Source of the DNA: Chloroflexota bacterium
GTDB lineage: Bacteria; Chloroflexota; UBA11872
NCBI GenBank assembly: GCA_022821905.1
Contig: JAJECS010000018.1
Location: 51,924-115,923, forward strand
DNA length: 64,000 bases
Reading direction: 5' to 3'
Shown here: positions 8,151 to 9,182 of the stretch, piece by piece
Layout: each line of letters opens with the position of its first letter
Position numbering within the stretch: position 1 is the stretch's first letter
Notes under the pieces: model-generated
The model's database searches: none
What the model was told of the DNA's origin: nothing
Seen by the model: only the letters and a program-made list of their open reading frames with translations
Made by a program: the position numbers and the translations under genes

Positions 8151-9182
8151 CTACAGCTCGTCGATGGCCGCCAGGATGTCGGCTGAGGTGATCAGGTCGT
8201 AGACGCCGCTGTAGATCGAGTGCCAGGCCAGGTTCCCGTCGAGATCGACCAGGAACGCCGACCCCGTGGCGAGACCGTCGCCGAAGTGGTTGAAGACGCC
8301 ATAGGCGCGGGGTACGTCGCCCTCGACGTTGTAGAGCACCGGAAATTGGATGCCGATCTGCTCAATGATGCCGGCGGTGTCTTCGAGCGAGTCCGTGCTG
8401 ATGGCCAGGACTTCCACGCCGCGCGATTGGAACTCCTGGTAGTTGTTCTGCAGCTCCACGAGCTGCGTGCGACAGGCCGTTCACCAGAAGGCCCGGTAGA
8501 AGACCACCACCACCGGCTGCTGTCCCGCGAACGAGCTCAGGGTGTATTGCGGACCCTGGGCGCTCGGCAGTGAGAAGTCGACAGCGGCCGCCCGTGCCGG
8601 CGCAGGCGGCGGGGTCGGCGTGGCCGTGGGCTGTGGCGCTGGCGTTGGCGTCGGTGTGGGTTCCGGCGCCGGAGTCGGCGTCGGTTCGGGTGTCGGGGTT
8701 GGCTCTGGTGCGGGCGTGGGCGTCGGCTGCGGAGTCGCTGTCGGCTGTGGGGCAGGAGTCGGCGTCGGAGCTGTGGTGGGCGTGGGTTGTGGCGTTGAAG
8801 TCGGGACAGGTGCGGGCGTCGGCGTCGGCGCCGCCGTCGGCGGGGGCGCCGGAGTGGGCGTGGGTGCGGGGACCGGCGTTGAGGTCGGCGCGGGAGCCGG
8901 CGTGGGCGTTGGCGCCGCGGCGACGGCTACCGGAGTCGGTGCGGGAGTAGCCGGTGTCGGCGTGGCGGGCGGCGGAGTAGCGGTCGGCGCTGGCGGGCTG
9001 GTGGGCGTAGGTGCTGCGGCGGTTGGCTCAGGCGTTGATGTGGGGGGAATGCTCGGCGGTTCGGGAGCCGCGGTTGCCGCAGGCGTGGCCTCGGCGGCGG
9101 TCTCCGCGGGCGCGGCCGTGTCGCCACAGGCAGCCAGGACGACCGCCAACGCGACGACCGCGATGATCCCGATGCGCATCAT
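8151..9182 (-). CDS. Selenocysteine-containing peroxiredoxin-like (AhpC/TSA) lipoprotein, copy 1
   Basis: One gene read through an in-frame TGA at 8481-8483, 343 residues. Residues 1-20 form a lipoprotein signal with lipobox VLAAC. Residues about 25-200 are a Pro-Thr/Ala linker. The C-terminal domain is AhpC/TSA-type thioredoxin fold: VDFSLPSAQG, VVVVFYRAFW, Sec234 (TGA), T, A, Cys237, RTQLVEL, then VEVLAISTDS, a GIQFPVLYN strand, and TGSAFLVDLDGN. Cys-type relatives read FYRGxWCPxC here, so TGA replaces the catalytic Cys of a CxxC pair. A SECIS-like hairpin follows (8450-8466). It probably reduces peroxides outside the membrane. It is downstream of cytochrome 9249-9803 and duplicated as 9856-10560. 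Alternative reading: nonsense mutation, unlikely because both paralogues share it. Confidence 0.87.
8450..8466 (-). promoter_or_regulatory. Bacterial SECIS-like stem-loop, copy 1
   Basis: Perfect 7-bp stem GCAGCUC / GAGCUGC with a 3-nt GUG loop in the mRNA. The loop is 22-24 nt after the UGA codon, inside the known 16-37 nt window for bacterial SECIS elements, and begins with G as usual. It codes for QLVELQ. Confidence 0.75.
8590..9120 (-). repeat. Low-complexity Pro-Thr codon repeat in peroxiredoxin copy 1
   Basis: Degenerate CCNACN-type array coding for the Pro-Thr-Ala linker between the lipobox and the peroxiredoxin domain. Open frames in the other five registers over this stretch are artefacts. 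Confidence 0.85.

Follow-up and report, generated by a model that had tools for sequence, protein, structure and literature searches.

The 64,000-nucleotide stretch analysed here (the window; positions 51,924 to 115,923 of contig JAJECS010000018.1, assembly GCA_022821905.1) comes from a Chloroflexota bacterium and carries on its minus strand, at 8151..9182, a gene with a single in-frame TGA (codon 234, 8481..8483) that very likely encodes selenocysteine (Sec, U). This gene, which we call Sec-Prx copy 1 for its peroxiredoxin (Prx) fold, begins with ATG and would encode a signal peptide, a lipobox (VVLAAC), a linker of 179 residues and a redox domain with the site U234-T-A-C237, with no further stop before the terminal TAG. 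Its signal peptide and lipobox make the product a predicted bacterial lipoprotein. Lipoboxes and linkers, except where said to be read by eye, were called with a simple pattern script and not with a dedicated predictor; by this script the linker is 86% Pro, Thr or Ala. A second copy lies upstream on the same strand (9856..10560; lipobox LTLAAC, linker of 68 residues, site U125-G-T-C128) with its own predicted Sec codon (codon 125, TGA at 10186..10188), and the domains of the two copies are 86% identical. With the TGA read as a residue, the AhpC-TSA domain (PF00578) scores 100.8 bits in copy 1 and 99.7 bits in copy 2 (gathering cut-off 26). Read on the plus strand, 8151-9182 contains five stops in frame 1, and a mechanical open reading frame (ORF) of 236 amino acids that overlaps copy 1 in another plus-strand frame was set aside as being without support.

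Because the UGA lies in frame, ordinary gene calling splits copy 1 into two ORFs (8481-9182 and 8151-8459), and the database proteins P0003-P0005 all end exactly at FYRAFW, the residues that precede the TGA in the site FYRAFW-U-TAC-RTQLVELQ. An earlier reading made from the sequence only had stated that the halves on either side of the TGA are intact and in frame (ending in FYRAFW and resuming with TACRTQLVELQ), that the linker runs to about 180 residues and that gene callers would truncate the product, and each of these statements agrees with what we find. It gave its coordinates with no strand; the frame is that of the minus strand.

The genome (an assembly of 2.95 Mb in 31 contigs, 93% complete) encodes a tRNA-Sec(UCA) (71.3 bits, above cut-off; also called by ARAGORN as tRNA-SeC with anticodon tca), together with SelA (495 bits, cut-off 268), SelB (289 bits, cut-off 242) and SelD (379.5 bits, cut-off 125). 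This is the complete gene set for Sec, so that, to judge by its genes, the organism can decode UGA in this way. The sequence-only reading had proposed a check for selA, selB, selC and selD, and a genome devoid of selB or selC is thereby ruled out. SelD itself has a single in-frame TGA (PGAGUACKL), at what we take to be the known Sec position of that protein. SelA scores above its cut-off in 39 of the 41 genomes of the class, among them all 21 that match the Sec-Prx family. The same findings bear on the option that UGA is recoded with Cys or Trp inserted, by a suppressor tRNA or through general reassignment of the codon, which we hold to be very improbable. What speaks for it is that the residue is known here from DNA alone; against it stand the tRNA-Sec, SelA, SelB and SelD, the TGA of SelD, and the fact that the same genes encode Cys as TGT or TGC three codons later, while no search aimed at other suppressor tRNAs was made. 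UGA is not reassigned, since it serves as a normal stop for 7 of the 28 long high-GC3 ORFs in the window and for two paralogue genes. Three further AhpC/TSA genes of this genome also hold one TGA each: L026 (G000:C4:50302-50736; UxxC site FYRGFFUGIC, with a lipobox and an 11-residue linker), L027 (C17:32862-33191; UxxC site FYRGHWUSHC) and L030 (C18:49285-49683; UxxC site FVRHIWULSC).

Matches to Sec-Prx at E <= 1e-15 were found in 17 of the 19 genomes of the taxonomic family. Exactly one TGA occurs in 28 of the 29 rows, the 29th being a contig-edge fragment that begins past the site, and the frame beyond the TGA measures exactly 109 codons in all 23 distinct genes of the FYRAFW type; for these reasons the TGA is not a chance occurrence. 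The downstream half evolves under purifying selection, as its dN/dS shows (0.03-0.55 in six of six pairs, some of which share a member; NG86); the 36 codons upstream of the TGA have values of 0-0.56. If the UGA were instead a true stop, the gene would be either a pseudogene or the source of a short, truncated lipoprotein, and what follows the stop would be an ORF of its own, or a dead one, read from an internal GTG. The split gene calls and the database proteins that end at FYRAFW fit such a reading, but the constant length and low dN/dS of the downstream half and the recurrence of the same TGA in both tandem copies and throughout the family argue against it, and a pseudogene would not retain a single stop precisely at the redox residue. 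On this conservation we consider a true stop so improbable as to be nearly negligible.

To return to Sec as the encoded residue, relatives outside the family carry either a TGA or a Cys codon at the site. A scan of GTDB genome contigs with a 23-row alignment (A1), which overlaps in part with the family genomes, gave 144 stretches that encode a relative, of which the best 80 loci were kept. Among these best 80 of 144, a script classified 78, with TGA in 77 and TGC in one (L125). The two that it left unclassified are L111, which reads FYRAFW-U-TYC with Ns in the frame, and L101 (about 3900-5000), in which one chain holds a Cys domain (ARCEGC) and then, with no change of frame, a Sec domain (WUTFC). 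The nearest named records in this set are Chloroflexota metagenome-assembled genomes (MAGs), with further ones from SAR202 and Dehalococcoidia. When 301 genomes of the phylum were searched with a profile, 42 of 55 rows had one TGA and 13 had none; each of the 23 top rows (E <= 1.2e-57) has a single TGA. Seven of the 13 TGA-less rows were inspected and comprise a fragment that does not cover the site (G007, L158), two PrxQ-like DDTGGC proteins (G024, G025) and four CxxC relatives.

Among the loci retrieved from outside the family, the site is covered in 14, and the aligned column is TGA in ten and Cys in four, which answers the question raised by the sequence-only reading of what homologues carry there. 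The four Cys relatives come from four genomes of the phylum and read CGTC, CGSC, CGAC and CGAC (L200, L201, L202 and L211 respectively). Both Sec and Cys forms therefore exist, and the window's own family showed the UGA form only. The three Cys forms that were read whole (L200, L201, L202) are located at the end of longer secreted proteins. These proteins also hold a thioredoxin-like domain (WCPPC, WCPAC or WCPSC). One of the ten loci with TGA, L203 (G210:C94:25869-26294), has no second Cys (UGPD, in FFQRCG-U-GPDRTQLVE).

Both copies can form a hairpin that resembles a bacterial selenocysteine insertion sequence (bSECIS) on the minus strand just past the UGA. In copy 1 (8450..8466) it has a 7-bp stem (GCAGCUC/GAGCUGC) and a GUG loop that begins 21 nt past the UGA, and in copy 2 (10156..10170) a 6-bp stem (CAACUC/GAGUUG) and the same loop. 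The published bSECIS model, in the portion of the source available to us, describes a loop of 3-9 nt with a G in its first two bases and a stem of 4-16 bp, located 16-37 nt from the UGA, with a minimum free energy of at most -7.5 (PMC13188914). Copy 1 falls within all of these ranges, at -10.1 kcal/mol for the hairpin alone; the segment from the UGA to +48 with the hairpin formed comes to -12.8 kcal/mol, and the pairing probability is 0.97 in a 51-nt context. Copy 2 agrees with the model in loop, stem and spacing, but its hairpin alone comes to -4.3 kcal/mol, which makes it the weaker case.

The stem is written into the catalytic motif, and the peptide TQLVELQ is invariant in the 23 genes while its codons for Gln and the second Leu covary, CAG occurring with CTG and CAA with TTG. 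Across 22 distinct rows the resulting base pair is GC in 13, AU in eight, GU in one and unpaired in none. The wider set of 92 distinct TGA loci includes 90 with Gln and Leu at these positions, and these divide into CAG-CTG (66), CAA-TTG (16), CAG-TTG (6, a G-U pair), CAA-TTA (1) and CAA-CTG (1), the last being the one mismatch. Copy 2 has CAA/TTG, its closest relative in G001 (the first copy, L036) has CAG/CTG, and the sister genus mostly has CAA/TTG, so that the double synonymous change has apparently happened more than once. When the alignment was compared with shuffles, the percentage paired, the number of cells changed on both sides and the covariation score exceeded them (reached by 0 of 500), and two measures that count pairs or types did not (reached by 465 and 498 of 500). 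This synonymous exchange of CAG/CTG for CAA/TTG under a fixed peptide offers a clear example of a likely SECIS inside a catalytic motif. Automatic hairpin picks for L036 (first copy) and L037 (another stem in each) and for L030 (a stem with loop AGGT) were not counted as support.

Several observations weigh against decoding as Sec or against the hairpin as its signal. Sec at codon 234 is predicted from DNA sequence alone, and the pattern used in the contig scan, CRTQLVELQ, overlaps the hairpin and may have favoured Sec genes, a bias to which the phylum profile search is less open. In a 62-nt fold the copy 1 hairpin is part of the centroid and absent from the minimum-energy structure, and that of copy 2 is weak and out-competed by another fold within 51 nt. 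The stability of the hairpins is not unusual relative to shuffled sequences (z of -0.18 and -0.89), and a lax search found a hairpin of at least 6 bp within range of 499 of the 1594 TGAs in the window (31%). Because of these last two results we dropped stability and mere presence as evidence, and the SECIS argument rests on conservation and covariation. The covariation in turn involves one base pair (four of the seven pairs never vary), the pair 20-36 fails in seven of 22 rows, and a tree-aware test, with seven supported independent pairs of which 3-5 are concordant and none discordant, gave a median p of 0.0625, which is suggestive and not significant. Taken as a whole, the tRNA-Sec, SelA, SelB and SelD, the conserved TGA, the Cys relatives and the conserved hairpin make Sec very likely, and the original proposal of a selenoprotein emerges strongly supported.

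As to what kind of selenoprotein this is, the sequence-only reading had placed the TGA at the catalytic position of a peroxiredoxin, of which the fold stands and the position does not. In alignments to 4xih, 1xxu and the DDTGGC proteins, the U takes the place of the Thr in the TxxC motif of peroxiredoxins, the next Cys coincides with their peroxidatic Cys, and the U aligns with the first Cys of the thioredoxin-type CxxC. The position of the Prx Arg (AhpE R116) is Gly in the alignments to 4xih and 1xxu. Since the U stands on the Thr of TxxC and the Arg position is Gly, the T/SxxC motif and conserved Arg that define a canonical peroxiredoxin are both absent, and the combination of PF00578 with UxxC that defines a Prx-like thiol:disulfide oxidoreductase is present. 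The protein is thus, on the predicted translation, a Prx-fold UxxC selenoprotein of a known family and not a canonical peroxiredoxin. A review and an ocean survey, in the parts seen, reserve the name Prx for TxxU and apply the term Prx-like to proteins in which this domain has UxxC, the selenoproteins among these Prx-like thiol:disulfide oxidoreductases having the motif UxxC/UxxU and PF00578 (PMC13188914, PMC9312934, PMC2398784). With these ('Prx-like 1' of the Global Ocean Sampling survey) Sec-Prx shares, as far as those parts describe them, PF00578, UxxC with CxxC counterparts and a SECIS directly after the UGA (PMC13188914, PMC9312934, PMC2398784). It differs from them as a predicted tethered lipoprotein that occurs in tandem beside cytochrome c lipoproteins and has relatives whose chains hold two or three Sec; neither the word lipoprotein nor Chloroflex- appears in the main text of any of the three papers.

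A lipoprotein form had also been proposed as new, and here NCBIfam already names a (seleno)lipoprotein family, NF041057 (Rcas_1661), likewise a thioredoxin-like lipoprotein that may carry Sec, although both copies fall far below its cut-off of 190 (30.1 bits for copy 2, 16.6 for copy 1); what stands is the tethered form in tandem with cytochromes c. The best-scoring NCBIfam model for copy 2 is NF040769 (SelL-related redox protein), which has a related redoxin domain; its cut-off of 120 is above the scores of 52.8 and 50.0 bits and is passed only by the domain-summed scores of multi-domain relatives (135.6, 132.6). PrxU (NF040737, cut-off 270; 41.7 and 43.8 bits) uses Sec and has the fold in common with Sec-Prx, which, unlike PrxU and canonical peroxiredoxins, is without the T/SxxC motif and the Arg. 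ResA and DsbE-type oxidoreductases and the lipoprotein thioredoxin Etrx2 are membrane-anchored and located outside, and they have a similar fold and a CxxC-type site; they differ in having Cys for Sec and no long linker. The Glu of the ResA motif CxxCxxE is replaced by the Gln of CRTQ in Sec-Prx. ResA and DsbE head the Foldseek list obtained with a predicted structure.

The tether is widespread within the family. Of its FYRAFW-type genes, 21 have 60 or more codons upstream, and lipoboxes were found in 20 of these; the one without is truncated by the end of its contig. In 19 of those 20 the linker is at least 68% Pro/Thr/Ala, the exception being L050. Among the best 80 of the 144 contig-scan loci, the script found a lipobox in 24 of 30 for L075-L105 and in none of 34 for L106-L141. 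The latter, from Acidobacteria, Gemmatimonadetes and others, are W-U-xxC redoxins, most with 260-320 residues past the TGA, and form another Sec redoxin group. They mostly have the same TQLVELQ after the UGA, perhaps since the hairpin writes it, and the query pattern also selects for that peptide.

Some relatives carry more than one Sec domain on a chain. L082:3149-5251 (OY282385.1, a Dehalococcoidia MAG) would encode a 700-residue chain that has a lipobox (by eye) and in which Pro/Thr-rich linkers join three AhpC-TSA domains. Its three in-frame TGAs lie at UGIC, UGFC and UGYC; a fourth TGA, at codon 701, was taken as the true stop. L091:3767-5173 (OY282365.1) is a predicted lipoprotein with two domains and two TGAs (UTYC twice). 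A CAG-CTC-G..-GAG-(T/C)TG segment follows each of the five Sec sites in these two genes. Such counts are not unheard of, as a 2026 review, in the part available, reports one Sec in most prokaryotic selenoprotein families and two or three in a small subset. The literature searched, of which some items were available in part, yielded no description of tethered multi-domain Sec lipoproteins or selenolipoproteins. The novelty here, then, lies in tethered Sec lipoproteins arranged in tandem with cytochromes c that are themselves predicted lipoproteins, and in relatives whose chains hold two or three Sec domains.

The unit extends beyond a single gene: it comprises both copies in tandem, and a lipoprotein cytochrome c precedes each of them. 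Directly upstream of copy 1 lies a predicted lipoprotein (VACGES by eye; 9249..9815, minus) with one cytochrome c domain (CATCH; PF13442/PF00034), and directly upstream of copy 2 another (AACGES by eye; 10637..11263, minus), also with one cytochrome c domain (CTVCH; PF13442/PF00034). The minus-strand order is cytochrome c lipoprotein, copy 2, cytochrome c lipoprotein, copy 1 and a GFO/IDH/MocA-type oxidoreductase (7011..8075), with a third predicted cytochrome c lipoprotein, which has a long Pro/Thr-rich linker, on the plus strand (5779..6999) at a locus kept in six genomes of the genus. A tethered cytochrome c and tethered Sec enzymes thus stand side by side at one locus. In all six genomes of the genus the first Sec-Prx is immediately preceded by a cytochrome c gene, and in four of the six another lies between the Sec-Prx copies; one genome has three Sec-Prx genes. 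For comparison outside the genus we used 11 stretches (L177-L187; ten from the sister genus and one from the same order). Sec-Prx is single in the sister-genus stretches fetched, and the MocA gene (~60% identity) adjoins it in seven of ten. This gene stays beside Sec-Prx in many relatives; it probably lies outside the redox unit.

Taking these lines together, we consider it likely that the one in-frame UGA of copy 1 is read as Sec within UxxC and that the product is a predicted lipid-anchored Prx-fold selenoprotein acting as a thiol/selenol redox enzyme outside the membrane, the extracytoplasmic location being inferred. In the mechanism that we propose, SelB and Sec-tRNA(Sec) would recode the UGA, helped by the hairpin with its loop 21 nt on, and the protein would be exported, cleaved at LAA-C and lipidated, with the Pro/Thr-rich linker holding the domain off the membrane. 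The selenol of U234 could then attack an oxidised substrate, a peroxide or a disulfide, and C237 would resolve the intermediate as an Se-S bond. Re-reduction of the enzyme could come from a CcdA/DsbD-type thiol carrier in the membrane, and the genome encodes one (PF02683, DsbD_TM, 49.2 bits, on C6). Finally, and this is the weakest step, the enzyme and the neighbouring cytochromes c might, on the same outer face, exchange electrons, or the enzyme might keep cytochrome c thiols reduced. Three elements of this scheme amount to a reasoned guess: that peroxides or disulfides are reduced at the outer face, that a carrier of the CcdA/DsbD type restores the enzyme, and that there is exchange with the lipoprotein cytochromes.

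Against this proposal stand the predicted structure, with a mean predicted local distance difference test (pLDDT) score of 73.5 and 53.5-65.2 for the other four of five, and the comparison outside the genus, in which the window's cytochrome domains gave no tblastn match in the 11 stretches and a CXXCH lipoprotein-like ORF lay nearby in only two by pattern search (L178, a confirmed cytochrome c, and L180, which rests on the pattern). A separate Cys-type AhpC/TSA gene (C6:123883-124242) also lies 0.6 kb from the DsbD_TM gene, and with it apocytochrome reduction can be explained without the Sec-Prx proteins. The link to cytochrome c is real within the genus and unproved beyond it.

These results also bear on what the enzyme might do in place of the exchange just outlined. 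It may be a true thiol peroxidase that removes peroxide outside the membrane and does not exchange disulfides, a possibility that we take seriously while leaning against it, as the Thr-to-U and Arg-to-Gly replacements noted above mean that the canonical Prx site is lost, and the literature cited above, in the parts seen, names the UxxC class Prx-like thiol:disulfide oxidoreductases. We think it unlikely that Sec-Prx serves, in the manner of ResA, to keep the haem-binding thiols of the adjacent cytochrome c lipoproteins in the reduced state. The predicted lipid anchor and extracytoplasmic location, the UxxC site, the place of ResA and DsbE at the top of the Foldseek list, the upstream cytochrome c gene throughout the genus and the DsbD_TM gene all favour such a role; on the other side, the adjacent cytochrome c was seen within the genus only, the Cys-type gene near DsbD_TM could do the job and, to our knowledge, a ResA-type protein needs no 180-residue tether.

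Extending the proposed exchange of electrons with lipoprotein cytochromes c to Chloroflexota of the SAR202/Dehalococcoidia kind, with one to three Sec domains per Pro/Thr-rich chain, would give an extracellular selenium relay, a speculation to which we attach a low probability. Such a relay would be hidden from annotation, since every Sec domain ends a gene call. The present genes point to a set of selenium enzymes that uncultured Chloroflexota would export and that gene callers break at the UGA, and the tandem genes and the chains with one, two and three Sec provide a natural series for asking why several selenols are tethered outside the membrane.

Two minor features of the window complete the picture. 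A tRNA-Phe called by ARAGORN at 7178-7271 (plus strand) has no Rfam support and lies inside the MocA gene, and is probably a false call. Further along, at 14415-16531 (plus strand), an ORF of 82 residues that ends in SGGA (MoaD/ThiS-like by eye) directly precedes an ORF of 621 residues, which we take to resemble aldehyde ferredoxin oxidoreductase.
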